DNA from: Bacteroidia bacterium
Lineage (GTDB): Bacteria > Bacteroidota > Bacteroidia > CAIKAF01
Reading direction: 5' to 3'
Assembly (NCBI GenBank): GCA_030427255.1
Contig: JAUHWY010000005.1
Location: forward strand, 87,776 to 151,775
Length of the DNA: 64,000 bases
The notes beneath the pieces were generated by a model. That model did no database searches. It had not been told where the DNA came from and saw nothing but the letters and a program-made list of their open reading frames with translations. Position numbers and translations under genes: made by a program. How positions within the stretch are numbered: position 1 is the first letter of the stretch; every line of letters begins with the position of its first letter. Of the stretch, positions 16,785 through 33,156 are shown one piece after another.

Positions 16785-16795
16785 GATGCCTTAGC

Positions 16796-17960: not shown

Positions 17961-19313
17961 TTAAAAAGTGCCCATGGCTTTATCCAGAGCTGCTTTGCTG
18001 TTTAAGAGGTCAAACAAAGCCTGATAATAAGACTGTTGTGCCTCGAACAGCTGTTGTTCTGATTGAGACAATTCCAAACTGGTGATAAGGCCTTCTTTGT
18101 ATTTAAGGCCATTAACTCGACGAATTTTTTTGGCCAACTCAAAGCCTCTTTCTCTATTTTGAAAACGCTGAAAGTTATCCATAACCTGATTGCGGGCATT
18201 AAGGTATTCTACCTGTAAACCTTGCTCCAAATAGGCTTGTTGGCGCAGCACTTTTTCGCGCTCCAACTGCAATTGCTTCAGTTTAGACATTCTGTTCCAG
18301 CTAGAGAAAATAGGCACCTGCAAATTCAGCCCCCAAACCAGTCCTCCTTGTGCTCCTACCGTACCGGAGCCTGCCAAAAAGCGGTCGTTGTTGAACAAAT
18401 TGTATTGGTAGCCTAAGCTGGTACTCAAACTGGGAAGGGCTTCGGCCTTTTGCAGTTTAATTTGGTACTCATTGATGGCCAGCTGTTGGCTCATAATTTG
18501 GTACTCCAAACGCTGCTTCACTTCAAAAGTGTCTTTTAGCCCGGGAACCAAACCGGAAAAGCCGCCTTGGTTCAGCAAAGTTTCCAAGCTTTCGGTCAAG
18601 CTTATTTCTTCTTGTGCCGGGAATCCCATCTGAAATTTAAGGGTTGCATAAGCGAGCTTACGGGCATTATCGGCTTGGATTCTGGCATCTTTGGTATTGG
18701 CAAGAATTAGCTCCAACTGTTCAACATCGAGGTCTTCCGCAAAACCTTGTGTATACAAAGCTTTGGTCTCCTCCACGTTATTCTCCAACACCTGAAGCGA
18801 GGAGTCTAGGGTGCGAATGGAAGCTTCAGACACTAAGCATAAAAAATACGTTTGGGCTACTTGGAAACGTACATCACGTTCGGTTTGTGCTTTTTGACTG
18901 CGTGTAAGCTCTAAAAACTGCTTGGCGGTAGCAATTCCGATAAAGTACTGGCCATTAAACAGCAGCATGGATCCATTCACCCCAATTACCGCTTGGTTTA
19001 AAGGAGCGGCAGGAATGGTAGTAAATTGATCCGGATTTCCATTGATAAAGTCCGGAAAAATAAACACCGGAGATTCAATGTTATAGCTATAATTGGCGTT
19101 GGCCGAAATTTGCGGTAGCCCGGTAGCCACATTCTCTGTAATGCGCTGTTTGCCAATCTCGACCTCTGTGCCTGCATTAAGCGCATTGGCATTGTGCTTG
19201 AGGGCATAGGTATACGCATCTTGCAGACTAAATTGCTGTTGCGCTCCTAGCGTGCTGCACGCCATTAGGCCCAATAAGCCAAAAAACGTCGATGGTTTCA
19301 TAAGCTTTTTCAT
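17961..19313 (-). CDS. TolC-family outer membrane efflux protein
   Basis: A 450-aa protein with a signal peptide (…LLGLMACSTLGAQQQ) and the duplicated helical pattern of OEP proteins: SLQDAYTYALKHNANALNAG near the mature N terminus, long amphipathic helices, and a second LAINEYQIKLQKAEALPSLS repeat start near residue 275. It forms the trimeric outer-membrane channel for the RND pump encoded downstream. A Cys (MACS) in the signal region resembles a lipobox, but AQQQ fits signal peptidase I cleavage. The ATG overlaps the TetR stop by 4 nt (ATGA). Confidence 0.9.
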   Translation of the reverse strand: MKKLMKPSTFFGLLGLMACSTLGAQQQFSLQDAYTYALKHNANALNAGTEVEIGKQRITENVATGLPQISANANYSYNIESPVFIFPDFINGNPDQFTTIPAAPLNQAVIGVNGSMLLFNGQYFIGIATAKQFLELTRSQKAQTERDVRFQVAQTYFLCLVSEASIRTLDSSLQVLENNVEETKALYTQGFAEDLDVEQLELILANTKDARIQADNARKLAYATLKFQMGFPAQEEISLTESLETLLNQGGFSGLVPGLKDTFEVKQRLEYQIMSQQLAINEYQIKLQKAEALPSLSTSLGYQYNLFNNDRFLAGSGTVGAQGGLVWGLNLQVPIFSSWNRMSKLKQLQLEREKVLRQQAYLEQGLQVEYLNARNQVMDNFQRFQNRERGFELAKKIRRVNGLKYKEGLITSLELSQSEQQLFEAQQSYYQALFDLLNSKAALDKAMGTF

Positions 19314-19945
19314 GCGTTTATTGAGGATATCTCTTCGGGATTTTTATAATGATGATCGAGGTAGACCAAGCCTTCCTTGCTGGCTATGCCGCGCACATGA
19401 TAGCGGAATACCTCAAAGTACAGTTTTACAAATGGGTATTGAGCCGATGGAAACACCTCCGGATTCATGGTAAGTGGTATGATATTCACATACAAGCGTG
19501 AAACCACTTCCACGTCCAAATCGGCGCGGTACAAGCCTTCCTCTTTTCCTCTGCTCAAATTTTGCTTTATCATGGCCAAAATCTCGCCGTTCCGAAATTG
19601 CTCAAAATATTGGAAGGCCTGAGGATAGTAGCGACGCAAATCGAAATAAATCGTAGGCTTCATTTCGCTCATGTCTTCGGTAACCAAGCGTGCAATACGG
19701 AACCATCGGTCTATGGCATTCCCTCCCTCTGCTAAGGTGTCTTCTATGCACCTTTTGTGGTTCTTAACATAATGTTGGATGGTGGCCAACACCAAGTGCT
19801 TTTTGTCCTTAAAATGCACGTACAGGGTTTTCTTTGAAATGCCCAATTCGCGCGCAACGTCATCCATGGTAACGCTTTTAAGGCCATACCGCAAAAAAAG
19901 ACGTGTGGTCGCCTCTAATATTCGGACAAATTTTGGATCGTTCAC
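19310..19945 (-). CDS. TetR/AcrR family transcriptional regulator
   Basis: A 211-aa protein. The N-terminal helix-turn-helix is typical: ATTRLFLRYGLKSVTMDDVARELGISKKTLYVHFKDK (about residues 11-47, given in overlapping view only), followed by an all-helical ligand domain. It starts with GTG at 19945. As first gene of the TetR-TolC-adaptor-pump operon it probably represses its own operon until an inducer binds. A palindrome overlapping the likely promoter (19976-20008) supports this. Confidence 0.88.
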   Translation of the reverse strand: MNDPKFVRILEATTRLFLRYGLKSVTMDDVARELGISKKTLYVHFKDKKHLVLATIQHYVKNHKRCIEDTLAEGGNAIDRWFRIARLVTEDMSEMKPTIYFDLRRYYPQAFQYFEQFRNGEILAMIKQNLSRGKEEGLYRADLDVEVVSRLYVNIIPLTMNPEVFPSAQYPFVKLYFEVFRYHVRGIASKEGLVYLDHHYKNPEEISSINA

Positions 19946-20222: not shown

Positions 20223-23200
20223 TTATTTCATTCGAATCACTTTGTGAATAGAACGCTCGCCGGCTTTGTTCACAACATGAACAAAGTAGGTGCCACGAGA
20301 AGCATCAAAGAACTGACTGTGTAGGGTCACCTGGTTGGTGCCTGCTTGCATGGTAGCAAATCCGGTTTCTCCGGTTTTGCGTCCAAGCATGTCAAATACT
20401 TCGATGTTGATTTCTTGCGCATTGGTCAAGCTGATCTCCACATTGGTCATGTCTTGGAATGGGTTGGGGAACACGGTAATGGCAGCGCCACCGTCAAACC
20501 CGTCAATTCCGGTAACCACATTAAGCTTGGTCATAAAGGTATCGGCTCCGCAGTTGTTGGTTACAATCAACATAACATCGTAGCTACCGCTTTGAGAGTA
20601 GGTATGTTGAACGCTATCTCCTTGAGCTACGTTACCATCTCCAAAGTCCCAAGTGTAGTTAATGCCATACAAGGTTCCAGTACCGTCATACGTATAGGTC
20701 AACTGTCCTACTTGGTTCAAGGTAATGTTACCTGCAGCAACAGGAATGTCGTTAACCGTTACGGCTTGAGTGTCAACAGCGGTACAACCATTTGCAGTAA
20801 CGGTATGTACTACATCAAACACACCGGCACCTGATTGAGCAGGAGCAAAGTTGCTTCCGCTAACACCGGTTCCGCTAAAGGATCCTCCGGAAGTATTGGG
20901 GTTCAATACCACAGGGTTGTCCGTTACACAGAGTGGTGTGGTAACACTAAACACGGCGTCTGGAGCCGGATTAATGGTAATATCCAAGGTGTCTGTGTCG
21001 GAACATTGTCCGGCTGTAGCGGTGTAGGTCACTTGAGCAGCACCCGAACCGGCAATAGAAGGATCAAAAGTTCCCAAAGCGGCGTCGGTGATACCTGCTC
21101 CGGACCAAGAGCCACCCGCAGGCGTTGCGCTTAGGTTCAAAGGACCATCGTTATCGCAAAGCGCCGTTTGATTGGCAATTTGAGCGTTGGGTGCGGGCAA
21201 TACATCTACAAACCTAGATGAAGTGTCCTGACAGCCGTTATTGTCTACCGTATAAAGAATTTGAGTCACACCGGTGCCTGCAGTTGCAGGGTCAAAGGTT
21301 CCTTGACTGGCGTTTACCACACCATTGCCAGACCAGGTACCGCCGGAAGTTGTTGCCGAAAACTGTACGATTCCAGCATTGTCGCACACGGTTGCCGGTG
21401 CGGTAAAGCTGGGGTCAGGCAAGGCATTCACAGCCACAGACTGTGTATCAATGCTTGTACAGTTGTTGTTGTCGGTAACTGTATAAATGGCGTTGAAGTT
21501 TCCTACGCCGCTTACAGATGGGTCAAAGGTTCCGTTGTTGGCACTGGTAATGCCGGTTCCGGACCAGGTACCGCCCGCTGGAGTAGCACTAAGGTTAGCC
21601 GCCTGTCCGTTTTGACAGAAGGTAGGCTGAGCGCTAAAGCTAATGTTGGGCGATTGGTTAACCGTAATGGTGTTGGTTACGGTATCGGTACAGCCGTTTG
21701 CAGAAAGAATGTAGGAAACATTGATGGATCCTGAGCCTGCAGCTGTTGGGTCAAATGTACTGCCAGTTACACCTGAACCTTGGAAAGTACCGCCAGAGTT
21801 TGTGGGGGTCAAAGATACCGGGGACCCATTATCACAAAGTACAGCGGGAGAAGTAAAGCTAGCGTCCGGAAGCGTATTCACCGTAATGTTGGTGGTATCG
21901 GCATCGGAGCAGCCATTCACTGTTACGTTATAAATCACCTGAATTGAACCGGTGCCAGAGACGTTGGGGTCAAAGGTTCCGGCGGTAGGGTTGGTGATGC
22001 CCGTACCTGACCAAGTACCACCTGGGGTAGCTGCGCTCAAGTTGGTGGCGTTACCACCTGCGCAAAGCGTACCTGGGTTACTGATGGCAGGGTTCGGCAA
22101 AGCATTAACCGTCACCACCACGCCTTGTGAGGTGTCGGCACAGATGCCGTTGCTGCCCACCAGCTGGTAAGTACCTGCTTGGTTTGCATAAATGGCCGTA
22201 TCGGAAGAACCCACACCCGGTATTGGGGTTCCGTTCCTTAGCCATGTATAAATGGTATGGTCAAAATCAGAATCGAGCTGTACGCTGTCACCCTGGCAGA
22301 TGGTGGTCGAAGACAATGGCGTAATGTTGCTCGGAATGGTATTGATGGTTAAACCGAAAGGCAAATCCGTAAAAGCTGTTACGGTAGCCGTAAGGGTGCT
22401 CAACTGAGGAGACACGTTGCTCACCAAGTTGGCATTGCCTTGATCGGTCCAAGTATTTGAAGTATAGTTGGCGATGCCTGTAAATACAGTATCGAGTTGG
22501 TCATCAAATGCAATGGTAACGTCGGCGTTAGACGATCCGGTCAACTGACCGATGTGGTGATACCACTGATCGTTTACCCAACAAGCAGGCGCTTGGGCGT
22601 TGCTGGTAAGGAATCCGTCGTTGTTGGGGTCGCTGTTCACAAAGCCTACGGAGAAGTCGTTGGCGTTTGCGTTGGCCGGTGTAATGTTTACCGGACGGTA
22701 GCGAGGGGTGCCTACGGTTGAACCCATTGGGTAAAGGTAGGTACCGGTAGAATTGGTTGAACGCACCAAAGCTCCATTTAAGCTATTGCTTACAAAACCA
22801 ACCGGGCTAACCGAAAGTGCATTAGCTGCAGGGTTGGTTAAATGAAGGGTGTCGTTGCCCAAAGCCAGCTCACAGCTGTCGATGTCTAAGTGATCGGTAA
22901 CAACGGCGTTTAAGTTAAGGGTCTTAACTGCGTTGTTGTTGAGCACTAGACGGGCAAAGTGCGTGGGTGAGGTTCCCTGCACAGTTTGGGCGGCTCCATC
23001 CAACACGACTACGCCGGTATCGCCGGGCGTAAATACGTTGTTGGAGGCGTTATTTTCCCAATCTCCGGTCAGCGTAATGGTACCATTGCTGGTAATTTGT
23101 CCGCTGCCCTGGTTGGTAAGCCCTCCCTGGACATAAATTTGAGCGCCCGGTTCTACGTGAACCGACGCGCCATTGAAGAAAACCTGTTGCCCTCGCGCTG

Positions 23201-23267
23201 CCCCGGCAAACCCTATAAGGGCAGCGGAGCTGGCGACAAGCAGCAGGCCGGTAGTCATTGGCTTCAT
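20223..23267 (-). CDS. Large secreted protein with six PKD/Ig-like repeats, PKD domain and T9SS sorting domain
   Basis: 1014 aa from the ATG at 23267 (an in-frame TTG at 23312 is less likely). A signal peptide ending ARGQQ is followed by a region of about 300 residues with short beta repeats. Six tandem repeats of about 72-75 aa follow (pattern LC…GGTWSGTGI…GTFDP…G…Y.V..NGC.D), then a PKD domain (WDFGDGNVAQGD…HTYSQSGSYDV) and a sorting domain (VFPNPFQDMTNVEI … FVHVVNKAGERSIHKVIRMK). It is probably a cell-surface structural or adhesive protein. It ends the tandem array and may be its surface anchor or scaffold, but no direct evidence shows this. Confidence 0.85.
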   Translation of the reverse strand: MKPMTTGLLLVASSAALIGFAGAARGQQVFFNGASVHVEPGAQIYVQGGLTNQGSGQITSNGTITLTGDWENNASNNVFTPGDTGVVVLDGAAQTVQGTSPTHFARLVLNNNAVKTLNLNAVVTDHLDIDSCELALGNDTLHLTNPAANALSVSPVGFVSNSLNGALVRSTNSTGTYLYPMGSTVGTPRYRPVNITPANANANDFSVGFVNSDPNNDGFLTSNAQAPACWVNDQWYHHIGQLTGSSNADVTIAFDDQLDTVFTGIANYTSNTWTDQGNANLVSNVSPQLSTLTATVTAFTDLPFGLTINTIPSNITPLSSTTICQGDSVQLDSDFDHTIYTWLRNGTPIPGVGSSDTAIYANQAGTYQLVGSNGICADTSQGVVVTVNALPNPAISNPGTLCAGGNATNLSAATPGGTWSGTGITNPTAGTFDPNVSGTGSIQVIYNVTVNGCSDADTTNITVNTLPDASFTSPAVLCDNGSPVSLTPTNSGGTFQGSGVTGSTFDPTAAGSGSINVSYILSANGCTDTVTNTITVNQSPNISFSAQPTFCQNGQAANLSATPAGGTWSGTGITSANNGTFDPSVSGVGNFNAIYTVTDNNNCTSIDTQSVAVNALPDPSFTAPATVCDNAGIVQFSATTSGGTWSGNGVVNASQGTFDPATAGTGVTQILYTVDNNGCQDTSSRFVDVLPAPNAQIANQTALCDNDGPLNLSATPAGGSWSGAGITDAALGTFDPSIAGSGAAQVTYTATAGQCSDTDTLDITINPAPDAVFSVTTPLCVTDNPVVLNPNTSGGSFSGTGVSGSNFAPAQSGAGVFDVVHTVTANGCTAVDTQAVTVNDIPVAAGNITLNQVGQLTYTYDGTGTLYGINYTWDFGDGNVAQGDSVQHTYSQSGSYDVMLIVTNNCGADTFMTKLNVVTGIDGFDGGAAITVFPNPFQDMTNVEISLTNAQEINIEVFDMLGRKTGETGFATMQAGTNQVTLHSQFFDASRGTYFVHVVNKAGERSIHKVIRMK

Positions 23268-23324
23268 ACTATCGCGTTTTGGTGTGGATTTACTATGTTG
23301 TGTTTTAGACAAAGGGTTGGTTAT

Positions 23325-23858
23325 TTATTTGAGGTCAAACTCTAATACTTCAAATGTATACATTATTTCGCTTTGGTCTTCTGCTACCAAAGCAGCTTCG
23401 GACGAAAAACTTGGGGTTTGCAGCACTTCTCCCTCGCTCAGCTGTTCCGGGAAGGGTATAGATTTAACCAAAATTTGATAATCGCCCATCCCTGCAGAGC
23501 AGGTAACCCTTCGAATTTTCCAAGCTTTGCCGGTTGGAACAGTAAACGCGGTGCCGGTCATTCCCGAAAACTGCTTAAGTTCTGCACTGCTTCCAACGGA
23601 TTGCACAGCTTGCTTTCGATCGGCTTCGGAAAGTGCATTGATTCTGTCTTGTTCGGCGCGAATTCTAAGATTCCATGCCTCTAAAGCTTCTTGTTCAATG
23701 GGCCTTCCGGCCTCGGCTTCTTGGGCTATCCAAGCTTGCATGCTGTCAATTTTGACTTGTACCGAAGGGGGTACACCTTGTGCCAAAGAACGATGAGAGC
23801 AAGTTAGCCCGATTAATGCCAAAATCAAAGAAAGAATGTGCTTGTTTCTTACCTTCAT
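23325..23858 (-). CDS. Array member 19: diverged paralogue with helical N-terminal extension
   Basis: A 177-aa protein with a signal peptide ending SLAQG. A charged helical segment of about 70 residues (rich in E, R, A, Q) precedes a degenerate array motif, FTVPTGKAWKIRRV near residue 109. The C terminus is TFEVLEFDLK instead of VIEFNVVP. It is therefore a relative of the 18 upstream paralogues with an added domain and a changed tail. It lies 4 bp after member 18. Function unknown; its position suggests a link between the array proteins and the PKD-repeat protein downstream. Confidence 0.7.
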   Translation of the reverse strand: MKVRNKHILSLILALIGLTCSHRSLAQGVPPSVQVKIDSMQAWIAQEAEAGRPIEQEALEAWNLRIRAEQDRINALSEADRKQAVQSVGSSAELKQFSGMTGTAFTVPTGKAWKIRRVTCSAGMGDYQILVKSIPFPEQLSEGEVLQTPSFSSEAALVAEDQSEIMYTFEVLEFDLK

Positions 23859-23862
23859 TGAA

Positions 23863-24438
23863 TTAAGGAACTATGTTGAATTCTATAATCGTGTACAAAG
23901 GGGTATTGGGAACGGAGCCCAAGTTTAGAGGCCCATCGCACTCATAATACCCGGTATTTCCACTGGGGTTGGTCTGATCTAAAACATAATACGGAGTTCC
24001 GGCGGGGATGTTGGGGCTAAGCGTATTTATACATGGGGTTTCTGAAACCAAAATTGTAGTTCCTGCCGGGAACCAAAGCGCCCCCTCCTGATTTCCGCGC
24101 AAGGGGGTCCCATTCACCAAAATACCGTTTTGGGACGTTCCACAAAGCACCTTGCCCAAATACCGCACACTTACCGTGCCGGAAGTTGCCCCAGTGCAGG
24201 GATTGGGGTTGGTGGCAGACCAAGTGACATTAAAGTTGTTGGCATGATTTCCATACCGATACCCACCGCTTTGCCGTTCCGAAGTAAGTTTCCAAACCTT
24301 ACCGGCAGGTACTGTCTGCTGCCCTGTTTGGGCAGTAAGCAGTAGCACCTGATTAAATTGCAAACTGCCTTGCGCAGAAAGCTTTGCTCCGGCAAAGACT
24401 AAAGCCAATAAAATACAGAACCTTACATGGGTTGTCAT
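23863..24438 (-). CDS. Array member 18: small secreted TVPAGKVWK-family protein, long four-Cys type
   Basis: A 191-aa protein starting at MTTHVRF (a TTG at 24459 is unlikely). Signal peptide ends KLSAQG; the framework follows: SLQFNQV, TVPAGKVWKL, ALWFPAGT and TIIEFNIVP at the stop. The centre holds NPNPCTGATSGT shared with members 15-17, then a Cys-containing GKVLCGTSQN segment and ETPCINTLSPNIPAGTPYYV. Ten bp separate it from member 17. Confidence 0.8.
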   Translation of the reverse strand: MTTHVRFCILLALVFAGAKLSAQGSLQFNQVLLLTAQTGQQTVPAGKVWKLTSERQSGGYRYGNHANNFNVTWSATNPNPCTGATSGTVSVRYLGKVLCGTSQNGILVNGTPLRGNQEGALWFPAGTTILVSETPCINTLSPNIPAGTPYYVLDQTNPSGNTGYYECDGPLNLGSVPNTPLYTIIEFNIVP

Positions 24439-24448
24439 AAAGTCAAAC

Positions 24449-25018
24449 TTAAGGAACAATGTTGAATTCTAAAATGGTTAACAAAAGAGAATTTGGGACA
24501 GGTCCCACATTAATTTGCCCATCGCATGCATAATATTGAAAGGACTGATTGGGGTTGGTTTGGTCGTTCAAATAATAGGGAGTAGCGGCCGGCATATCTG
24601 GGCTCAAAGTATTTGAACAAGTTGTGGCAATTAAAGAAACGGTGGTTCCGGAAGGAAGCCATACCAGCCCTTTGTTTCCATCCATCTCCAATTGGGTTCC
24701 GTTAATCAGCACGCGGTTATTGCCCGAAGGACACCTTTGCTTTTCTATTCTCCGCACGTTTGAAGTACCCGAAGTGGCTCCAGTACATGGATTCGGGTTT
24801 GAGCTGGACCAAGTAATATTAAAATTGGAGCTCCAGTTTTGATAGTAGGCTCCTCCACTGGTATAATAGGAAGTTATTTTCCAAACTTTTCCCGCCGGAA
24901 CGGTTTGGGTACCGCTTTGGGCATTAAGCACCAAAACTTGGTTGAACTGCAGGTTCCCTTGGGCATTTAAACCAAAGGAAAACAAAAGCATTGCAAGTAA
25001 AAAGAATCGATACTTCAT
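24449..25018 (-). CDS. Array member 17: small secreted TVPAGKVWK-family protein, long four-Cys type
   Basis: A 189-aa protein. The first ten residues (MKYRFFLLAM) and the DNA around its start are identical to member 16, indicating recent duplication. The framework is NLQFNQVLVL, TVPAGKVWKIT, GLVWLPSGT and TILEFNIVP. The centre has four Cys: NPNPCTGA, KQRCPSGNN, TTCSNTLSPDMP and YACDGQI. It is likely to form disulfides after export. Unknown function. Confidence 0.82.
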   Translation of the reverse strand: MKYRFFLLAMLLFSFGLNAQGNLQFNQVLVLNAQSGTQTVPAGKVWKITSYYTSGGAYYQNWSSNFNITWSSSNPNPCTGATSGTSNVRRIEKQRCPSGNNRVLINGTQLEMDGNKGLVWLPSGTTVSLIATTCSNTLSPDMPAATPYYLNDQTNPNQSFQYYACDGQINVGPVPNSLLLTILEFNIVP

Positions 25019-25021
25019 GGG

Positions 25022-25588
25022 TTAAGGAACAATATTGAATTCTATTACGCTTACCAAGATGGAGTTGGGAACCGCTCCTGCATTGATTGGGCCGGCACAG
25101 TCGTAGTAGGACCTAATGTCGCCCAAATCAGTCCTATCCTCTTGAAAATAAGGAGTTCCTGCAGGAATATTGGGGCTCAATGTATTGAAACAAACCGTTT
25201 CCAAAATGTCTACCGTGGCTCCAGCAGGCAGCCAAAATGGCCCAGACTCGGACAAAGCTGTAGTTACTCCATTCAATACCAGGGCGTTGTTGGACTTCGG
25301 GCACATTCTTTTTCGTATTTGCCTTAGGCTGGAAGTTCCTGAAGTTGCTCCGGTGCATGGGTTGGGATTGTTGACCGACCAAGTAACCAGATCGTTGCTG
25401 CTCCAATTGTAAAAATATATGCCTCCACTTGTGTTCTGTGCGGTGATTTTCCAAACTTTCCCGGCAGGTACGGTTTGGGTTCCACTTTGGGAATTTAGCA
25501 CCAACACCTGATTAAACTGTAGGTTTCCCTGGGCGCTCAATCTAGTGAAAAGCAAAAGCATTGCAAGTAAAAAGAATCGATACTTCAT
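25022..25588 (-). CDS. Array member 16: small secreted TVPAGKVWK-family protein, long four-Cys type
   Basis: A 188-aa protein with signal peptide ending RLSAQ. Framework NLQFNQVLVL, TVPAGKVWKIT, PFWLPAGA and SVIEFNIVP. Four Cys in the centre: NPNPCTGA, RMCPKSNN, ETVCFNTLSPNIP and YDCAGPI. It differs from member 17 mainly between these anchors. The gap to member 17 is 3 bp. Confidence 0.82.
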   Translation of the reverse strand: MKYRFFLLAMLLLFTRLSAQGNLQFNQVLVLNSQSGTQTVPAGKVWKITAQNTSGGIYFYNWSSNDLVTWSVNNPNPCTGATSGTSSLRQIRKRMCPKSNNALVLNGVTTALSESGPFWLPAGATVDILETVCFNTLSPNIPAGTPYFQEDRTDLGDIRSYYDCAGPINAGAVPNSILVSVIEFNIVP

Positions 25589-25591
25589 GGG

Positions 25592-26161
25592 TTATGGAAC
25601 AATATTAAATTCAATAACACTTACAAGAATAGAATTGGGAACAGCTCCGGCATTGATAGGGCCATCGCACTCTCGGTAATACTGCAAATTATTTGGGTCG
25701 GTCCTATCTTCCAAATAGTACGGTGTAGCTGAAGGAATATTAGGACTTAAGGAGTTAACGCATGGGGTTTCAACGATTCCCAAGGTAGCTCCTGCCGGCA
25801 ACCATAGCGGCCCGGACTCCCCCAGCTTGGTCTTGACCCCATTCAGCACAAGGTTGTTATTGGCATCCGGGCATTTATACTTACGGACTTGCCTAATGGA
25901 ACTAGTTCCTGAGGTGGCGCCATTGCAGGGATTTGGGTTGGTAATGGACCATGTAGTGTTTGAATTGCTACTCCAGTTGCTGTAATACACCCCACCGCTG
26001 AGGTTCTGCGAAGTAATCTTCCAAACTTTTCCGGCGGGTACGGTTTGGGTGCCGCTTTGCGCATTAATAACCAGCACTTGATTGAACTGCAAATTGCCTT
26101 GCGCAAATAGCCCAACACTTGAAAAAAGGCCAAAAAGCCCGGCCAAAAGGGAACGACGCAT
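25592..26161 (-). CDS. Array member 15: small secreted TVPAGKVWK-family protein, long four-Cys type
   Basis: A 189-aa protein from MRRSLLAG (an alternative ATG at 26185 would overlap member 14). Signal peptide ends GLFAQG. Framework NLQFNQVLVI, TVPAGKVWKIT, PLWLPAGA and SVIEFNIVP. Four Cys in NPNPCNGA, KYKCPDANN, ETPCVNSLSPNIP and RECDGPI. It is the upstream-most member of the four-Cys subgroup. Confidence 0.8.
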   Translation of the reverse strand: MRRSLLAGLFGLFSSVGLFAQGNLQFNQVLVINAQSGTQTVPAGKVWKITSQNLSGGVYYSNWSSNSNTTWSITNPNPCNGATSGTSSIRQVRKYKCPDANNNLVLNGVKTKLGESGPLWLPAGATLGIVETPCVNSLSPNIPSATPYYLEDRTDPNNLQYYRECDGPINAGAVPNSILVSVIEFNIVP

Positions 26162-26171
26162 ATACTTTGAT

Positions 26172-26537
26172 TTAGGGAACAACATTAAATTCTATTACGG
26201 AGGCAAATCGCTCTTGATTAAAGGCAAAAGGTAGGCTGAGACTGGTACCCGCCGGCAGCCACAAAGGCAAGGTTAGCGAAAAACGCCCTTGGTCGGTCGA
26301 AAAATTGGGCGTGTACCAATAAGAGACTCCATTGATTCCAATCGACATAAAGTTGCTGTTGTTGCTGCTTACACTTACCGAAGTCACTTTCCAAACCTTA
26401 CCCGAAGGCACACTCCATGCTTGTCCATTGCTGTTGGTGCTAAGCAACAATACCTGATTGAACTGAAGGCTTCCTTGGGCTTTTACACCTAAACTTAGCA
26501 AAGCACCAAAAATGAGGGTTAAAATGAAGTTTTTCAT
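26172..26537 (-). CDS. Array member 14: small secreted TVPAGKVWK-family protein, short Cys-free
   Basis: A 121-aa protein from MKNFILTL, whose ATG overlaps the stop of member 13 by 4 nt. Framework SLQFNQVLLL, a modified SVPSGKVWKVTSV, LPLWLPAGT and SVIEFNVVP. The mature part has no Cys; the centre carries GINGVSYWYTP. It is the shortest member. Confidence 0.8.
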   Translation of the reverse strand: MKNFILTLIFGALLSLGVKAQGSLQFNQVLLLSTNSNGQAWSVPSGKVWKVTSVSVSSNNSNFMSIGINGVSYWYTPNFSTDQGRFSLTLPLWLPAGTSLSLPFAFNQERFASVIEFNVVP

Positions 26538-26926
26538 GGGACTACCGTAAATTCTATAACCGAAATTTCGCCTACTCCGGATCCGGCAGAAAGGGTGGCT
26601 CCTGCAGGCAACCAGAGCGGCCAGTTGGTTTCCCAAACCACACCGGAAGCATGGTTAAATCCACCTGCGGCTCTAACAGAACGCACGGCTCGGTTTTGGC
26701 CGTTGATTTGAATAAAAGCGTCAGAATTTGAACTTACACCAGCGCTTTGTCCCGTTGAAATCATGCCTGTAATGTTGCTGCTGTAAGCACATCCGGTGAG
26801 CTTCCACACCTTTCCTGCGGGGACCGTTTCTTGGTTGGTAACCAGCTTAACCTGACTAAACTGAAGGCTTTGGGCATGCAGCATGCCGGCAAAGCAAAGA
26901 AGGAGTAATGCAAGCAAGCGTTTCAT
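26534..26926 (-). CDS. Array member 13: small secreted TVPAGKVWK-family protein, FSQV type
   Basis: A 130-aa protein with signal peptide ending MLHAQ. Framework SLQFSQVKLV, TVPAGKVWKLT, WPLWLPAGA and SVIEFTVVP. The centre has a QINGQNRAV motif. The FSQVKLV start and EFTVVP end group it with members 11 and 12; member 3 is similar but ends in EFTVNP. The ATG overlaps the stop of member 12 by 4 nt. Confidence 0.8.
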   Translation of the reverse strand: MKRLLALLLLCFAGMLHAQSLQFSQVKLVTNQETVPAGKVWKLTGCAYSSNITGMISTGQSAGVSSNSDAFIQINGQNRAVRSVRAAGGFNHASGVVWETNWPLWLPAGATLSAGSGVGEISVIEFTVVP

Positions 26927-27321
26927 GGTACTACCGTAAATTCAATGACCGAAATTTTATTGAGGCAAGGCCCTCCTGAGAGTGTCGCTCCTGCGGGCAA
27001 CCAAATGGGCAAACTGGTGCCGTAATAATACCCCGTGTACCCATTGTAGGCCGAATTTCCGGCGCCGCCCAGTTTGGTAAAGACCCCATCGACTTCAATG
27101 GCTTGGTTTTGGTATTGACCGGCATTGCAATTGCTGCTTCCGCTATTGGCCAAGGGCATGGTAGTTGCGGGAATGTTAAAAATCACGCTTTCTACTTTCC
27201 AAACTTTTCCGGCAGGGACGGTCTCCTGACTGGTAACCAGCTTAACTTGGCTAAATTGAAGGCTCTGGGCATGCAGCATGGCACCGAGACCAAGAAAAAT
27301 TACGATAAGGAACTGTTTCAT
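26923..27321 (-). CDS. Array member 12: small secreted TVPAGKVWK-family protein, FSQV type
   Basis: A 132-aa protein with signal peptide ending MLHAQ. Framework SLQFSQVKLV, TVPAGKVWKVESV, LPIWLPAGA and SVIEFTVVP. A Cys in SGGPCLNK before the last strand and one in SNCNAG could pair. This arrangement resembles member 2 (SGGPCNNQ). The ATG overlaps the stop of member 11 by 4 nt. Confidence 0.8.
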   Translation of the reverse strand: MKQFLIVIFLGLGAMLHAQSLQFSQVKLVTSQETVPAGKVWKVESVIFNIPATTMPLANSGSSNCNAGQYQNQAIEVDGVFTKLGGAGNSAYNGYTGYYYGTSLPIWLPAGATLSGGPCLNKISVIEFTVVP

Positions 27322-27701
27322 GGCACTACGGTAAATTCAATGACGCTTATTTGACCTACGTTGGTAGAAGGCTCTAAAGTAGTTCCTGCAGGAAGCCACA
27401 TGGGCAGACGACTCAGTTCCTGAGAGTGCACCCCGTTGGCGTTTCCAAAGGTGTGTCTTAGGTTTATACTTTGTCCATCGACTCTTAAAACAGCTGTGTG
27501 GCTTTGGTAAGATGAGGTTCCGGTATTAATCCCCATAGAAGCCGTAAGCATCGCCGATTCTACCTTCCATACTTTTCCGGCGGGCACGGTTTGCAGGTTG
27601 GTAACGAGCACTACCCGGCTAAACTGCAGAGACTGAGCCGAGCTTTGGGTGGCGAAAAAGAAGGCAAACAAAAAGACGGTACAGACGAATAGGTTTTTCA
27701 T
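27318..27701 (-). CDS. Array member 11: small secreted TVPAGKVWK-family protein, FSQV-like
   Basis: A 127-aa protein from MKNLFVCTVF; a longer frame to 27794 runs through hairpin element D and is rejected. Signal peptide ends QSSAQ. Framework SLQFSRVVLV, TVPAGKVWKVESA, LPMWLPAGT and SVIEFTVVP. No Cys in the mature part. It is the first member after the hairpin that splits the array. Confidence 0.8.
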   Translation of the reverse strand: MKNLFVCTVFLFAFFFATQSSAQSLQFSRVVLVTNLQTVPAGKVWKVESAMLTASMGINTGTSSYQSHTAVLRVDGQSINLRHTFGNANGVHSQELSRLPMWLPAGTTLEPSTNVGQISVIEFTVVP

Positions 27702-27733
27702 GGGTATGCGCTTGTGTTTGGAAGGAGATGCGG

Positions 27734-27869
27734 CAGGGATGCGCCGGAAAGCCCGCAAGCAGCCAAGCCAAAGGGGGGCGAGGGTTGCAGCCACTGAGCC
27801 TTAGCGAAGGGCGCTGCGGCCCCGCCCCCCTTGGCTTGGCTGCGCGGACTTGCAGGCAGCAGCCCGCCC
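27734..27869. repeat. Intergenic hairpin element D (class 2 loop) inside the paralogue array
   Basis: Stem 27760-27790 pairs with 27814-27842 (left end CAGCCAAGCCAAAGGGGGGC) around the apex 27791-27813, the complement of the element C apex. Flanks (27734-27759 and 27842-27869) also match element C in reverse, but the stem sequence is unrelated. It lies in the only long gap (189 bp) of the array, between members 10 and 11. Confidence 0.75.
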
Positions 27870-27890
27870 GGCCGCCCAAAAAAACAAACC

Positions 27891-28259
27891 TTAGGGCACC
27901 ACATTGAATTCCAAAGCAAAAAAGGTGATGTTTTGATTGGAGCCCAATCCGCTGTAGCCGATGCTAGCACCGGAGGGGAGCCAAAAAGGGAATTGATACA
28001 CCCATCGTGAATCGCTTTGGGTGGTGATTTGTGAAAGAAAGCCGAGCTGCCGGTTGTTAACAAATAGGGTAGCCAAATTGCTGGTATTTGTGCTCATGGA
28101 GGTGACTTTCCAAACTTTTCCGGCGGGTACAGTCCAGCAAGTGGTGCAGGTGCTTTGGTTGCCTTCGAGCAAAACTACATTGTTGAACTGCAGGCTGCCC
28201 TGTGCAGAAAGCATCATTGAAAAGCAAAGCGCCAAGAAAAAAAGTATGTGCTTATTCAT
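27891..28259 (-). CDS. Array member 10: small secreted family protein, CxxCW type
   Basis: A 122-aa protein with signal peptide ending MLSAQG. Framework SLQFNNVVLL, CTTCWTVPAGKVWKVTSM, FPFWLPSGA and ALEFNVVP. A CxxC pair placed directly before the TVPAGKVWK strand marks members 8, 9 and 10. Its ATG overlaps the stop of member 9 by one base (TAATG). It is followed by hairpin element D. Confidence 0.8.
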   Translation of the reverse strand: MNKHILFFLALCFSMMLSAQGSLQFNNVVLLEGNQSTCTTCWTVPAGKVWKVTSMSTNTSNLATLFVNNRQLGFLSQITTQSDSRWVYQFPFWLPSGASIGYSGLGSNQNITFFALEFNVVP

Positions 28260-28654
28260 TAGGGTATTACATTAAATTCAATGCCGTAAAAAATGGTATT
28301 CATACTGGATGTGCCGTTGCCAAAGCCTAGTGTTGTTCCGGCAGAAAGCCAAATGGGGAATTTTGGATTTCCATAGCGTGGCCCCCAAAAGGAAGAAGAG
28401 CTGTTGTTAAAAAAGTCGCCCACCAAGCCCGACCCTTCCAAGCCGTTGATGTACATAGAAGGCAGAGCGGTACTGTTGCATGAGAAGCCGGTGATTTTCC
28501 AAACCTTTCCTGCGGGTACGGTCCAGCAGCTGGTGCAAGAGGACTGTGCTTGTGCCGTAAGTACCAGAGCTTGGTTAAACTGAAGGGTTCCTTGAGCTTG
28601 TGTAGCTAAGCTAAGTCCTAAACCAAGAATTAAAGTGCCTAAAAACTGTCGCAT
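28259..28654 (-). CDS. Array member 9: small secreted family protein, CxxCW type
   Basis: A 131-aa protein with signal peptide ending ATQAQG. Framework TLQFNQALVL, SCTSCWTVPAGKVWKITGF, FPIWLSAGT and YGIEFNVIP. An additional Cys lies just after the second strand (FSCNST). The centre contains MYINGLEGSG. The gap to member 8 is 1 bp. Confidence 0.8.
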   Translation of the reverse strand: MRQFLGTLILGLGLSLATQAQGTLQFNQALVLTAQAQSSCTSCWTVPAGKVWKITGFSCNSTALPSMYINGLEGSGLVGDFFNNSSSSFWGPRYGNPKFPIWLSAGTTLGFGNGTSSMNTIFYGIEFNVIP

Positions 28655-28655
28655 A

Positions 28656-29048
28656 TCAGGGTACTTCTAAAAATTCGATGCCGTAGAAAGCGATGTTGCG
28701 GTTGGAGCCGATGGAACCATAACCAAGGGCTGAACCTGCCGGGAGCCAAATCGGGAAAACTTGGTCTGCGTATGCAGCATCTAAATAGGTACCGCTGCTT
28801 GACGAAAAGACACTTCCTATTAAAAAGCCTAAAGAAAGGCCATTCAAATGGATGGAGGTCATGGTATTGGAGTTGGTAGAAACACCGGTTATCTTCCAAA
28901 CCCTACCCGAAGGTACCGTCCAACAGGTGGAACATCCGCTGGCTTGGCTGGTCAACAATAAGGCTTGATTGTATTTTAAATTGGCGCCTTGGGCTTTAAG
29001 TCCCTGCAAGGAAAGGCCAAACAACAATAGAATGAGAAGTTTGCGCAT
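28656..29048 (-). CDS. Array member 8: small secreted family protein, CxxCW type
   Basis: A 130-aa protein with signal peptide ending GLKAQG. Framework NLKYNQALLL, GCSTCWTVPSGRVWKITGV, FPIWLPAGS and YGIEFLEVP. The tail LEVP is the most changed among the canonical members but still ends in Pro. The ATG overlaps the stop of member 7 by one base. Confidence 0.8.
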   Translation of the reverse strand: MRKLLILLLFGLSLQGLKAQGANLKYNQALLLTSQASGCSTCWTVPSGRVWKITGVSTNSNTMTSIHLNGLSLGFLIGSVFSSSSGTYLDAAYADQVFPIWLPAGSALGYGSIGSNRNIAFYGIEFLEVP

Positions 29049-29500
29049 TAGGGTACAATATTGAATTCAATGGCCGACAAAAAAATATTGGATCCGCTGG
29101 TTTGCACGGTAGAGCCTGCCGGAATCCATATAGGCAATACGTTGGGGTCGCTTTCGAAATTTAAGCTTGAGAAGTTGTAGCCACTATTGCTGTTGGAACT
29201 GCAGGTTGGGCTATTGCTATACATGGTTTGGGTAAGAAACTTCCGAAAAGAAAGCACCTCCACCCCATTCAGAAAAAAACCGGCCACCAAGGCTTTTGAA
29301 AACCAGTTGTTGTAGAGCGGAGCCACGCTTCGGCACACCTCGTCTTTGCCGTAAATGGCGGTTACTTTCCAAACCTTACCGGAGGGAACCGTTTGCAATT
29401 GGTCGGTAACCACCAAGGCTTGGTTAAACTGCAGGGTACCTTGGGCAGTGGCCGAAAGGCCAAAAAAGCTTAGTAAGGCTAGGAATAGGAATGATTTCAT
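29048..29500 (-). CDS. Array member 7: small secreted TVPAGKVWK-family protein
   Basis: A 150-aa protein from MKSFLFLALL; the longer frame to 29578 overlaps member 6 and is rejected. Signal peptide ends ATAQG. Framework TLQFNQALVV, TVPSGKVWKVTAI, LPIWIPAGS and SAIEFNIVP. The centre is longer than in its neighbours, with GFFLNGVEVLSF and a Cys-containing SPTCSSNSNSG. ATGA overlap with member 6. Confidence 0.8.
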   Translation of the reverse strand: MKSFLFLALLSFFGLSATAQGTLQFNQALVVTDQLQTVPSGKVWKVTAIYGKDEVCRSVAPLYNNWFSKALVAGFFLNGVEVLSFRKFLTQTMYSNSPTCSSNSNSGYNFSSLNFESDPNVLPIWIPAGSTVQTSGSNIFLSAIEFNIVP

Positions 29501-29886
29501 GGAACAATATTGAATTCTATAACCGAAAGAAAGTCTTTGCTGCATTGGGTTTGGAGGGTGGTACCGGCAGGAAGCCACATGGGAAAATCGTTGGAAGGAG
29601 CCATATACACACTGTTTAGGCCCGTAGACACATTGCGAAACACATAAAAGGACTGGCCATCTACCACAAAAGGCGTATGACGACTACTATTACCACAGGT
29701 GCTTTGCGTAGAGGAGGTATTGGTCACATTTGCCTGCCAATAGCTTGTTACTTTCCACACCTTGCCCGCAGGCACCGTTTGCACTTGGTCGCTCACTTTC
29801 AGCACTTGGTTGAACTGCAAGTTGCCTTGAGCAAGGGCTGAAAGGCTGAGAAAAGAAAGGAACAATAAAGAAAGCAAGTACTTCAT
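29497..29886 (-). CDS. Array member 6: small secreted TVPAGKVWK-family protein
   Basis: A 129-aa protein with signal peptide ending ALAQG. Framework NLQFNQVLKV, TVPAGKVWKVTSY, FPMWLPAGT and SVIEFNIVP. The centre has STCGNSSRHTPFVVDGQSFYV and a late TQCSKDF, close to member 5, suggesting a pairwise duplication. ATGA overlap with member 5. Confidence 0.8.
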   Translation of the reverse strand: MKYLLSLLFLSFLSLSALAQGNLQFNQVLKVSDQVQTVPAGKVWKVTSYWQANVTNTSSTQSTCGNSSRHTPFVVDGQSFYVFRNVSTGLNSVYMAPSNDFPMWLPAGTTLQTQCSKDFLSVIEFNIVP

Positions 29887-30275
29887 GGCACTATGTTAAA
29901 TTCAATGATGGAAAGCACATCTGCAGAACAGACCGTCTGAAAGGTAGTGCCGGCAGGGGCCCAAAAAGGAAAGTCGGTTTGAACCCCTAGCACCACCGTA
30001 CTAATTCCTGTGGCTACCCCATTCAGCACATAGTACCTATTGCCGTTCATTAAAAAAGGGCTATGTCTTGAAACGTCTGTACAGCTGGTGCTATTGAAGT
30101 TACTGGCATTGGTAGTTTGTGCTTGCAGGTAACTAATCACTTTCCAAACCTTGCCTGAGGGTACGGTTTGTTGTTGTGTTCCCACCATAATTACTTGGTT
30201 GAACTGCAAACTCCCCTGAGCGTGCAAGGCAAATGCAGCAAAAAAGCTCAACAAAAAGAAACTCAATTTCATCAT
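29883..30275 (-). CDS. Array member 5: small secreted TVPAGKVWK-family protein
   Basis: A 130-aa protein with signal peptide ending ALHAQG. Framework SLQFNQVIMV, TVPSGKVWKVISY, FPFWAPAGT and SIIEFNIVP. The centre SCTDVSRHSPFLMNGNRYYVL and late TVCSAD parallel member 6. Two ATG codons in tandem start it; the first overlaps the stop of member 4 by 4 nt. Confidence 0.8.
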   Translation of the reverse strand: MMKLSFFLLSFFAAFALHAQGSLQFNQVIMVGTQQQTVPSGKVWKVISYLQAQTTNASNFNSTSCTDVSRHSPFLMNGNRYYVLNGVATGISTVVLGVQTDFPFWAPAGTTFQTVCSADVLSIIEFNIVP

Positions 30276-30805
30276 GGAACCACATTAAATTCTATAACGG
30301 AAAGACGGGTGCCCGCACCGGTAGAAGCCACTTGGGCTCCGGCCGGCAACCAAAGAGGCAGCACGTCGGTATCTTCGGTTTGGTTTACGCAGGCCAACTG
30401 GCTCAAATTAAAACAGGAAGGTTGGCTTCCGGTGCAGTTGGTGGTGGTGTAGGTATTGTCGCAGCTGGAGCCGTTTCTAAATCCGGACAAAAAGGTAGGC
30501 ACGGTTCTGCCGTCTATAATCAAACCACGAATGGCATAGCTGTAGCGAAAAGAGCCGGTAGGCCAAGAGCTTCCTACCGAGCAGCGGACCAACTGACCCA
30601 CTTCATGGGTGGAGCCGTTGCTGTAATCAATGCACTCGTTGGTTCGGTAATCCAATCCGTAAACTGAAATCACTTTCCAAACCTTGCCGGAAGGAATGGT
30701 TACGGTATTGTTGTCGATCACCCGCACTTGATTGAATTGCAAGCTGCCTTGAGCCCAAGCGCCCAAGGGCAAAACAATGGCAAATACGAGGGACCAAAAC
30801 TTCAT
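30272..30805 (-). CDS. Array member 4: small secreted family protein with long Cys-rich centre
   Basis: A 177-aa protein with signal peptide ending GAWAQG. Framework SLQFNQVRVI, TIPSGKVWKVISV, LPLWLPAGA and SVIEFNVVP. The centre is about 45 residues longer than in short members, with six Cys (for example NECIDYSN, LVRCSVG, SCDNTYTTTNC, PSCFNLSQLAC). This suggests extra disulfide-stapled loops. The gap to member 3 is 3 bp. Confidence 0.8.
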   Translation of the reverse strand: MKFWSLVFAIVLPLGAWAQGSLQFNQVRVIDNNTVTIPSGKVWKVISVYGLDYRTNECIDYSNGSTHEVGQLVRCSVGSSWPTGSFRYSYAIRGLIIDGRTVPTFLSGFRNGSSCDNTYTTTNCTGSQPSCFNLSQLACVNQTEDTDVLPLWLPAGAQVASTGAGTRLSVIEFNVVP

Positions 30806-30808
30806 AAA

Positions 30809-31201
30809 TCAGGGGTTTACGGTAAACTCTATTACACTAATGCCTGTGGCATTTGTATTGAGCCCTAGACTAGTTCCTGCGGGTAGCCAAAGCGGTAAAT
30901 CGGTAACGTTCATACCATCAGCGGCGGCCATATCCGACTCACGCATGGCCATTCTAGATTTGATAATGGTATTCTGACCATCAACTGTAATTGCCACAGT
31001 TGAAACAATGTAACCTGAGGAATTGCCACTCAAATCATTGCTCGACAACACGCTCACCACCTTCCAAACTTTTCCGGCCGGCACGGTTTCGGTTTGGGTC
31101 ACCAATTTGGCCTGACTAAAGCTCAGGGTTTGCGCAGTAGCCCTTGAGTTTAGAACGAGAAGAAAAAAAGCGGTTAGAAAAAGGAAGAAACGGTATTTCA
31201 T
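30809..31201 (-). CDS. Array member 3: small secreted TVPAGKVWK-family protein, FSQ type
   Basis: A 130-aa protein with signal peptide ending ATAQ. Framework TLSFSQAKLV, TVPAGKVWKVVSV, LPLWLPAGT and SVIEFTVNP. Mature part without Cys; the centre has AITVDGQNTII. Its N-terminal MKYRFFLF resembles members 16 and 17, though the rest belongs to the FSQ group. ATGA overlap with member 2. Confidence 0.8.
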   Translation of the reverse strand: MKYRFFLFLTAFFLLVLNSRATAQTLSFSQAKLVTQTETVPAGKVWKVVSVLSSNDLSGNSSGYIVSTVAITVDGQNTIIKSRMAMRESDMAAADGMNVTDLPLWLPAGTSLGLNTNATGISVIEFTVNP

Positions 31202-31617
31202 GGCACTACGTTAAATTCAATCACGCTTATCTGGTTGTTGCAAGGCCCTCCGGAAAGCGTAGCACCGGCAGGAAGCCAAAGAGGCAGCTCGGTGTAGGCA
31301 TGCGCATAGGACAAACTGGAATAGGATGCTGTATGCATTCCCAAACCGGTTTTGGTGTTAACACCGTTAATAACTACGGCACGAGCGTGGTAACGATTGC
31401 TCGAACAGCTAGAAGATGTACTGCTTAAGTCGCCTGAGCTGGTTGTTGGAATATCATAAATCACCGATACCACCTTCCATACCTTATTGGCAGGAACGGT
31501 TTCCAGACTGGTCACCAATTTCACCTGATTGAACTGCAGCGAGCCCTGAGCTCGGCCATGGAGGGAAAGCCCCAAAATGGCGACAGCTAAAAGCAAAATC
31601 ATTACGCCTTGTTTCAT
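31198..31617 (-). CDS. Array member 2: small secreted TVPAGKVWK-family protein
   Basis: A 139-aa protein with signal peptide ending HGRAQG. Framework SLQFNQVKLV, TVPANKVWKVVSV, LPLWLPAGA and SVIEFNVVP. The centre has SSCSSNRYHARAVVINGVNT, and SGGPCNNQ comes before the last strand, so the two Cys may pair as in member 12. It starts 11 bp after member 1. Confidence 0.8.
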   Translation of the reverse strand: MKQGVMILLLAVAILGLSLHGRAQGSLQFNQVKLVTSLETVPANKVWKVVSVIYDIPTTSSGDLSSTSSSCSSNRYHARAVVINGVNTKTGLGMHTASYSSLSYAHAYTELPLWLPAGATLSGGPCNNQISVIEFNVVP

Positions 31618-31628
31618 AACACTAACTA

Positions 31629-32123
31629 TTAAGGTACTATGTTGAATTCAAGAATACTTACCAGCATATTGGTAACGTTTACTTGAAATGTATTTCCGGA
31701 GGCCAACCAAAAAGGGGTATTTAGGGAAGCCGTCATATTCACGTTATAGGTATGGGTTGGCGGGCAGTTTCCTGTACCTCCGGTGCAAGTGCTACCGCTA
31801 CACACAAAGCAGCCTACCGCTTCATTGAAACCAATTCCATTGATGTCGTACAAATAGGCCAGATATCGACAAGAGCTGGAACTGCAGCTACCGCCTCCGC
31901 AACTGGTGCCACAGTGGCCCGAAACTGCACCGGTGGCTGTAATTTGCCCGCCTGTATTGCGCATGTTTACAATCTTCCAGGTTTTGCCTGCAGGAACTGT
32001 AAGCAAGCCGTCGGTATGATCAATCACCAGAGTTTGATTGTACTGCAAAGCCCCTCCTTGCGCCAGGAGACTTAGGGACAAAATCCAAGCCGCACATATC
32101 AGAACGACACGTGAAAACAACAT
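31629..32123 (-). CDS. Array member 1: small secreted family protein with Cys-rich centre
   Basis: A 164-aa protein from MLFSRVV; an in-frame TTG three codons earlier is less likely. Signal peptide ends LLAQG. Framework ALQYNQTLVI, TVPAGKTWKIVNM, TPFWLASGN and SILEFNIVP. The centre carries eight Cys in short clusters (GHCGTSCGGGSC, SSCRYLAYL, GCFVCSGSTC, GNCPPTH) around the DINGIGF motif. It starts 20 bp after the fibre-like gene. Confidence 0.8.
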   Translation of the reverse strand: MLFSRVVLICAAWILSLSLLAQGGALQYNQTLVIDHTDGLLTVPAGKTWKIVNMRNTGGQITATGAVSGHCGTSCGGGSCSSSSCRYLAYLYDINGIGFNEAVGCFVCSGSTCTGGTGNCPPTHTYNVNMTASLNTPFWLASGNTFQVNVTNMLVSILEFNIVP

Positions 32124-32143: not shown

Positions 32144-32602
32144 TTAGAATCCGTCTACGGTGTACACCAAGGTAGGGTCACCACCTTGGCCACCGCCACC
32201 GCCAACTACGCTCACCATGGTAACCCACTGAGCACCGTCGTAATAATAGAACTTATTGTCGTCGGTATTGAAAATAAGCAAACCGGTGGCAGGGTTCGAA
32301 ATGGCTTGGTATTGAACGGCAGTCATTCTAGGAATCAACACACCGCCGGTGGTAGAGCTTACATCCAAAACCGAAGAAGCATCGGGCGAGTTGGTATTGA
32401 TACCTGTGCGCATGTCGTCCTGAACGGTCAACATAGAATTGCCGTCGCTGTTTTTCACATCCAAGGCTGTGGTTCCGCTGGTATTTCCAGCACCCTCCAC
32501 TTCCAATCGAGCATTGGGGTTGGAGGTACCCACACCCACGTTTTGCGCATTAACTCCCAGGGCCAATCCGGCGAATGCAACTACTAAAGACCAGGTTTTC
32601 AT
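32144..32602 (-). CDS. Secreted fibre-like protein heading the array operon
   Basis: A 152-aa protein from MKTWSLVVAF; signal peptide ends GVNAQ. The mature part begins NVGVGTSNPNARLEVEG, then DVKNSDGNSMLTVQDD and SVLDVSSTTGGVLIPRMT, ending with NPATGLLIFNTDD and KFYYYDGAQWVTM. This is a frequent Bacteroidetes secreted pattern that resembles phage tail-fibre and trimeric adhesin stalk repeats. No T9SS sorting domain is seen. Its promoter and a 20-bp gap make it the probable first gene of the array transcript. Confidence 0.75.
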   Translation of the reverse strand: MKTWSLVVAFAGLALGVNAQNVGVGTSNPNARLEVEGAGNTSGTTALDVKNSDGNSMLTVQDDMRTGINTNSPDASSVLDVSSTTGGVLIPRMTAVQYQAISNPATGLLIFNTDDNKFYYYDGAQWVTMVSVVGGGGGQGGDPTLVYTVDGF

Positions 32603-32629
32603 AATTGTGTAATTGAGTAGATGTTTTAT

Positions 32630-32637
32630 CAAATGTA
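32630..32637 (-). promoter_or_regulatory. -7 box (TACATTTG) of the paralogue-array operon
   Basis: On the minus strand TACATTTG matches TAnnTTTG exactly, 27 bp before the ATG at 32602. A clear -33 TTTG at the right distance was not seen. It is the only good candidate upstream of a tightly packed 21-gene strand run. Confidence 0.5.
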
Positions 32638-33156
32638 GCACATTAACTGCGCTTGTGTAGGGCATTTAAGCCCACATTCTTACATTAAGAAATTGCTAAA
32701 CCCCACTTAACTCAACGAAAACTCTATTTAGACAAAACCAAAAAGCCAAAGCTAAGCCACTTATTTGTCACCGCATTGAATTGAAACAAAAAACAAAGCC
32801 ATGAAGCCTCTTAACCTTACACACATCTAAAAACACGACTATTTGACACAACTTTCTAACGCCAAAAAGAACAAAACCCAAAGTTGGAATTTGCATATAG
32901 AGTCAAAAACAAACCCAACAAATCTCCGACAGACACCCCTTTCTCCTTTCAAAAAGCTGAACTAGGTCAAAGCGCACCCGAAAGAATCAGGAATCCGCCT
33001 GATTTATTTTTTGAAGAAACCCTCAAAACACATTGGGCTCTTAAGCCGCCAAAAACAAAAAAAACAAGCCAAAACCTTTCCCAAAGCATTGAGGCACGAC
33101 CTTTGCACTAAGTACCTAAAAGCTGAAAATTCGTACCTTAAACGTCTTGTTTGGGC

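Follow-up and report, generated by a model that had tools for sequence, protein, structure and literature searches.

The 64,000-nucleotide window analysed here (positions 87,776 to 151,775 of contig JAUHWY010000005.1 from a Bacteroidia bacterium) carries, on its minus strand, a gene for a secreted putative fibre stalk (S), a tandem array of 18 small secreted paralogs (family F) and a diverged terminal paralog (T). This gene system is real and occurs in several Bacteroidota lineages; its parts are known in kind, and their combination, the size of the array and a short C-terminal tail on the stalk are new to the literature that we found. We propose, with confidence that is evenly balanced, that the locus encodes a cell-surface fibre system, made of the stalk, the jelly-roll array and the terminal protein, that has not been described previously.

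The 18 F genes run from 31629-32123 through 23863-24438, with all frames intact according to the open reading frame calls and translations, and, counted from corrected starts, encode proteins of 121-191 aa. Successive array genes overlap by 1-4 bases or lie 1-20 bases apart, with one exception, a 189-bp gap (27702-27890) preceding F gene 11, which is the sole long gap within the array and possibly holds an internal promoter. In the 18-gene alignment, an invariant A-Q pair marks the point of signal-peptide cleavage, in keeping with the Q-rule that describes signal peptidase I sites in Bacteroidota (PMC10653852); an L, a W, a K, a second W, an E-F pair and the C-terminal P are likewise invariant. 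The consensus reads AQGSLQFNQV...TVPAGKVWKVTS...PxWLPAG...SVIEFNVVP, and a TVPAGKVWK segment is also shared. The mature protein begins two to three residues before the first strand. The first-pass annotation had described 18 same-strand small secreted genes with a diverged nineteenth, sharing an AQ end, LQFNQV, TVPAGKVWK and SVIEFNVVP, and our calls agree with it in coordinates, counts and motifs. A profile built from F matches every array copy at E ~1e-27 or lower, along with eight further places on other contigs of the same genome, one of them a two-domain protein; hence, the resemblance within the array is not due to chance.

No curated family fits F. Scans of eight window proteins, F among them, against Pfam, NCBIfam and PHROGs returned isolated weak or single-member matches, and 106 diverse F members searched individually against Pfam gave scattered one-member matches and no family, bearing out the earlier impression that the motif combination belongs to no named family. 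Likewise, no description of the F system was found in the open-licence literature searched. Relatives of F were recovered at 67 loci, all labelled Bacteroidota bar one labelled bacterium, mostly from Flavobacteriales metagenome-assembled genomes, many of them lake-derived by name. The family is present in 19 of 395 genomes across the class; in the window's genus, six genomes contain 26-42 matches each.

All 18 F genes are colinear and intact in a relative of the window genome (locus L029), with identities of 72-97% and a pooled dN/dS of 0.107. In a quick tree, based on few columns and of limited support, nearly every window F gene pairs with the L029 gene at the same array position, and many also group with counterparts from three further species; the F array of L062 forms a separate, lineage-specific expansion in another clade. 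Given as coordinates on the minus strand, length, profile E-value and identity to the L029 ortholog, the array comprises gene 1 (31629..32123; 164 aa; 1.3e-34; 93%), gene 2 (31198..31617; 139 aa; 1.4e-41; 88%), gene 3 (30809..31201; 130 aa; 6.0e-35; 72%), gene 4 (30272..30805; 177 aa; 1.3e-33; 92%), gene 5 (29883..30275; 130 aa; 2.2e-39; 72%), gene 6 (29497..29886; 129 aa; 1.7e-43; the chain of the second structural model below), gene 7 (29048..29500; 150 aa; 8.7e-39; 89%), gene 8 (28656..29048; 130 aa; 4.1e-30; 93%), gene 9 (28259..28654; 131 aa; 2.4e-32; 81%), gene 10 (27891..28259; 122 aa; 2.2e-32; 73%), gene 11 (27318..27701; 127 aa; 1.4e-36; 80%), gene 12 (26923..27321; 132 aa; 3.9e-38; 91%), gene 13 (26534..26926; 130 aa; 7.7e-40; 88%), gene 14 (26172..26537; 121 aa; 8.2e-34; 77%) and four genes of a long type, namely gene 15, with a second inserted loop (25592..26161; 189 aa; 5.9e-32; 97%), gene 16 (25022..25588; 188 aa; 3.4e-29; 87%), gene 17 (24449..25018; 189 aa; 5.5e-31; 80%) and gene 18 (23863..24438; 191 aa; 8.2e-28; 89%). 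The positional orthology and purifying selection together indicate that the F copies are individually maintained parts of a fixed subunit set, and the family has expanded more than once. Decaying duplicates, isolated and frameshifted, which the first-pass annotation had itself raised against its reading, are rejected on the strength of the 18 intact, colinear genes and the low dN/dS in this close relative.

Immediately 5' of the array lies S in a short form (32144..32665, minus strand; likely start MKTWSLV at 32602), with a signal peptide, a Gly-rich linker and the tail DPTLVYTVDGF (32147-32179), the only copy of the tail in this genome. Its fibre module contains 'VGVGTxxPxA' and 'LDVSSTTGGVLIPRMT..GLLIFNTDDNKFYYYDGAQWV', its 173 aa hold no Gly-X-Y repeats and its C-terminal part aligns over 68-113 residues, at 38-55% identity, with the C-terminal module of the collagen-like and other stalks that stand beside F arrays outside the genus. 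Judged from these alignments, the window S is the C-terminal stalk module without the collagen part. This is the fibre-like gene for which conserved synteny with the array had been suggested as a check, and that synteny is confirmed. Outside the genus, most F arrays either lie immediately 3' of a gene for a secreted collagen-like protein or are divergent from one; stalks in relatives match the Pfam Collagen model PF01391 (1.3e-24, 1.3e-38, 1.7e-21 and 6.6e-37), which marks them as bacterial collagen-like proteins. Some loci encode a second, adjacent collagen-like protein; in the single case tested, it contains Peptidase_S74, a trimer-chaperone domain that occurs in trimeric fibres.

The stalks differ from one another, with collagen repeats, a 'LDVSSTT..GLLIF' fibre module or a short NYQAV-type form, yet they end exactly in a Gly/Ser/Asn-rich linker followed by TLIYTxDGF or a close variant. 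A tailed stalk is the 5' neighbour in 33 of 37 F runs of at least two genes with a same-strand 5' neighbour, a count that includes some same or near-identical DNA fetched twice and corresponds to ~28-30 independent cases; the remaining four runs are second halves of clusters split by a glycine-rich fibre gene, and many further runs are divergent from a tailed stalk. Each of the six genomes from the window's genus has YTxDGF followed by a stop exactly once, in every case at the array. A stricter tail pattern matched 12 of the 395 genomes: eight are F-positive, six of them of the window's genus, and have the tail at the stalk, whereas the other four are all F-negative and their matches proved on inspection to be antisense or out of frame. 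The strict tail is thus present in 8 of 19 F-positive genomes versus none of 376 F-negative ones in frame (Fisher's test, p 6e-12 by genome, which is too optimistic because of relatedness, and 2e-4 by genus). Further F-positive genomes have the variants TLIYTTQGF, SLVHTVKGF, TLIYLSDGF and TLIYLGSGF. We set aside the idea that the tail is an outer-membrane beta-barrel C-terminal signal: it comes after a flexible linker instead of a barrel and does not show the alternating hydrophobic pattern of such signals.

Two side observations concern the stalks. In four of them (L075:7721-9997, L084:7053-9563, L085:8441-9961 and L072:8428-9987), the segment between collagen and tail, 'DYAIFEDRQ...YIEATAPAG', is possibly a TNF/C1q-like domain; Pfam did not recognise one in the single stalk tested, that of L075. 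Further, in the window's genus, long F arrays are broken up, or single F genes flanked, by proteins that combine the fibre module with a glycine-rich region and have no DGF tail (L030:12138-13496, L038:8906-10279, L041:8903-10279, L042:9140-10507, L096:4428-5951 and L103:6693-7994).

At the other end of the array, T (23325..23858, minus strand; T profile 5e-35) belongs to a conserved family whose gene immediately follows the final F gene at 26 loci. T has ~105 residues in most lineages, the window version carrying an added N-terminal segment that is probably helical, and it still matches the F profile weakly (21 bits). The diverged nineteenth gene is a conserved terminal component at the 3' end of arrays. 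Following T is a gene for a PKD-domain protein with a C-terminal sorting domain of the type IX secretion system (T9SS) (20223-23264 or 20223-23312, minus strand; PKD 4.6e-14, Por_Secre_tail 6.2e-09). The gene order is the same in L029, and in the window's genus the PKD gene is possibly part of the array operon. The synteny proposed earlier for this gene was seen only inside the genus, the arrays of other lineages having different T9SS-tailed proteins beside them. Small proteins of this kind (160-207 residues) adjoin the stalk or array in ten loci tested, with Por_Secre_tail above the Pfam cut-off in L031, L034, L068, L070, L072, L073, L082, L083, L085 and L127; a comparable neighbour in L062 falls 0.3 bits below it. 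In the Pfam scans, neither Por_Secre_tail nor CHU_C matched F, T or the window S, such domains being confined to the neighbours.

F was modelled as single chains with AlphaFold2, first from 18 sequences, with a moderate result (pLDDT 77.6), and then from 106, for F gene 6 (pLDDT 86.8, pTM 0.80), with nine strands of three or more residues. On the second model, F is confidently predicted to be a small jelly-roll; the invariant LQFNQV segment forms its first strand and SVIEFNVVP, likewise invariant, its last. Conservation sits at both ends, the middle 50-60 residues differ in length and sequence, and the loops between strands are rich in Ser/Thr/Asn/Gly. Comparison with the PDB gave a general resemblance alone: nucleoplasmin cores scored best (Z 6.0), ahead of phage cement proteins (Z 4.8), Ena2A (Z 4.2) and the C1q/TNF heads of adiponectin, Cbln1 and GITRL (Z 3.5-4.0, within chance resemblance). 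Nucleoplasmin, satellite-virus, phage cement and capsid jelly-rolls, cupins and TNF-like folds all scored Z <=6, too low to support a specific relation. We therefore claim the fold class and no specific relation for the predicted structure; a family outside the comparison list may yet prove to be related. In five loci, the F domain is circularly permuted, such that its C-terminal half immediately precedes its N-terminal half, and a glycine-rich domain comes next (L093:956-1921, L095:4674-9431, L074:3804-4805, L076:4278-5288 and L090:1643-2611; Gly_rich_2 by Pfam in L093), and some of these chains add an ordinary C-terminal F domain. By implication, the termini of F would lie near each other, and the variable part would then point away from them.

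The consistent order of S, F(n) and T, the occurrence of the tail only with F and the trimeric features of the stalk lead us to propose that these components form one assembly. In it, S would be a secreted stalk that is probably trimeric; most lineages have it in collagen-like form, the window in a collagen-less short form. Its TLIYTxDGF tail, borne on a flexible Gly/Ser linker, would serve as a docking site for F or T. We consider such docking the most economical mechanism, comparable to the peptide docking of the F-ENA fibres of Bacillus (PMC11952670). The separately encoded jelly-roll domains, with their nearly invariant scaffold and paralog-specific loops, would dock onto the three tails of the S trimer and possibly onto each other, such that a fibre head or sheath presents many different F loops; the possible arrangements are a single head on each stalk, a sheath and a hetero-polymeric pilus. 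T may start or cap the assembly, and the neighbouring small T9SS-tailed proteins may place or anchor the fibre beyond the outer membrane. A surface location is suggested by the signal peptides, the collagen stalks and the neighbours with T9SS tails, and attachment to surfaces, particles or other cells is the predicted purpose. The 'multi-subunit surface structure' of the first-pass annotation accordingly gains a recurrent neighbourhood of stalk, F array, terminal gene and T9SS-tailed protein, while its surface location and assembly are predictions. Somewhat short of even confidence, we suggest an as yet undescribed class of Bacteroidota surface organelles in which the ten-residue C-terminal tail of a trimeric stalk, collagen-like or derived from collagen, specifically docks a large, position-conserved set of separately encoded F proteins, giving a hetero-polymeric or many-headed fibre with up to 22 different subunits per cluster and 26-42 per genome.

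Several observations weigh against this proposal. No structural homolog of F stands out above Z 6.0, and the stalk in the window's own genus is devoid of collagen repeats. Most single F genes, including the eight dispersed places in the window genome, have no tailed stalk beside them, so F may work stalk-free. Moreover, F has no T9SS sorting domain, and the proposal does not account for its passage across the outer membrane.

The alternative that survives best, which we nevertheless regard as unlikely, is that the F subunits polymerise into a hetero-polymeric pilus with the collagen-like S serving as no more than a tip or anchor, attached through a peptide that imitates the contact between subunits. 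This is how the F-type endospore appendages (F-ENA) of Bacillus are built: small subunits stack into fibres, and the collagen-like F-Anchor and F-BclA dock at the two ends by mimicking the homotypic contact (PMC11952670). Like them, the present system combines small beta subunits with collagen-like proteins predicted to dock at the ends of a surface fibre; the jelly-roll model of F is compatible with a beta subunit of this kind, Ena2A is among the full-length structural matches to F, if weakly (rmsd 4.2, 80 aligned), and the F strand NLQFNQV and the tail TLIYTxDGF appear by eye to share an L-x-aromatic-N/T pattern. However, the first strand of F is not preceded by an N-terminal hook, certain clusters pair each stalk with a single F gene and the structural scores reach the level of a common arrangement only. 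The two systems also differ in that ours is from Bacteroidota, with no spores, has many paralogous subunits per operon and places the proposed docking tail at the C-terminus of the stalk; none of the 106 F members matched the ENA families (DUF4183/DUF3992-type) in Pfam at E up to 0.1.

Less probable still is the possibility that an unknown exporter reads the tail as a short signal for sorting or secreting the stalk, with the F proteins being independent secreted or periplasmic proteins that are merely co-expressed. A flexible linker with a strictly C-terminal motif on dissimilar proteins does resemble sorting signals, and the F signal peptide is of the ordinary Sec type. Yet a general signal would be expected on many proteins, whereas this tail is found once per genome and always at the F array in the genus, and no gene for a dedicated enzyme is consistently beside the arrays. 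We find it improbable that F is a diversifying, soluble or surface lectin-like binding repertoire that provides variation in antigens or recognition and lacks an ordered assembly. A fixed scaffold whose inter-strand regions vary strongly in length and sequence, the Ser/Thr/Asn/Gly-rich loops and the expansion in L062 would suit it; however, no machinery for recombination or inversion was noticed next to the array, and the loops are under purifying selection, with a dN/dS of 0.095 in the variable part (N-core 0.04, C-core 0.08). With orthologs of individual array positions in the closest relative and, for many, in three further species, the earlier idea of a 'repertoire of binding proteins' is weakened in its rapidly diversifying sense. 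A cassette of phage- or tailocin-derived tail fibres and adhesins is very improbable, for although the stalk module resembles phage proteins (PHROG 1325, of unknown function, 7.5e-08) and one neighbouring collagen-like protein has Peptidase_S74, the viral contigs gave no F relative at the sensitivity of the scan, the components have Sec signal peptides and no structural phage genes were noted beside the arrays read.

The proposed fibre system has thematic counterparts elsewhere. BclA, C1q and other collagen-stalk proteins with TNF/C1q-like heads similarly pair a collagen-like stalk with small jelly-rolls, to which F bears a weak fold resemblance; unlike them, the F heads have no sequence match to these proteins and are encoded separately in arrays rather than fused to the stalk. 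Phage long tail fibres with gp38-type tip adhesins consist of a trimeric fibre and a separate distal-end protein, paralleling the proposed trimeric stalk with its separate end protein; in contrast, the present components lack phage context, are Sec-exported and include as many as 22 paralogs per cluster as candidate tips. The T9SS-secreted surface adhesins of Bacteroidota share the phylum and presumably the surface, and Por_Secre_tail proteins recur beside the arrays, but F, T and the stalks tested have no T9SS sorting domain.

Elsewhere in the window, a 1971-aa protein (54428-60343) combines Ig_7 and PKD repeats with three matches to the ALK/LTK-type glycine-rich domain (1.5e-72) and a borderline T9SS tail. 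A 2148-aa single-module polyketide synthase (4858-11304; KS-AT-DH-ER-KR-ACP by Pfam) is encoded in this 3.2-Mb genome, and genes for an RND efflux pump and an HlyD adaptor (13416-17932) are accompanied by two further same-strand genes (17961-19945).

If the proposal is correct, Bacteroidota would gain a fibre system that draws its stalk and its large set of subunits from separate genes and joins them by a ten-residue tail. That tail would offer a simple handle, through peptide binding, tail deletion or tail transplant, on a family that is unnamed in the databases searched, and the modular display scaffold could be useful in itself. More generally, it would explain why some Flavobacteriales maintain 26-42 copies of one small fold.

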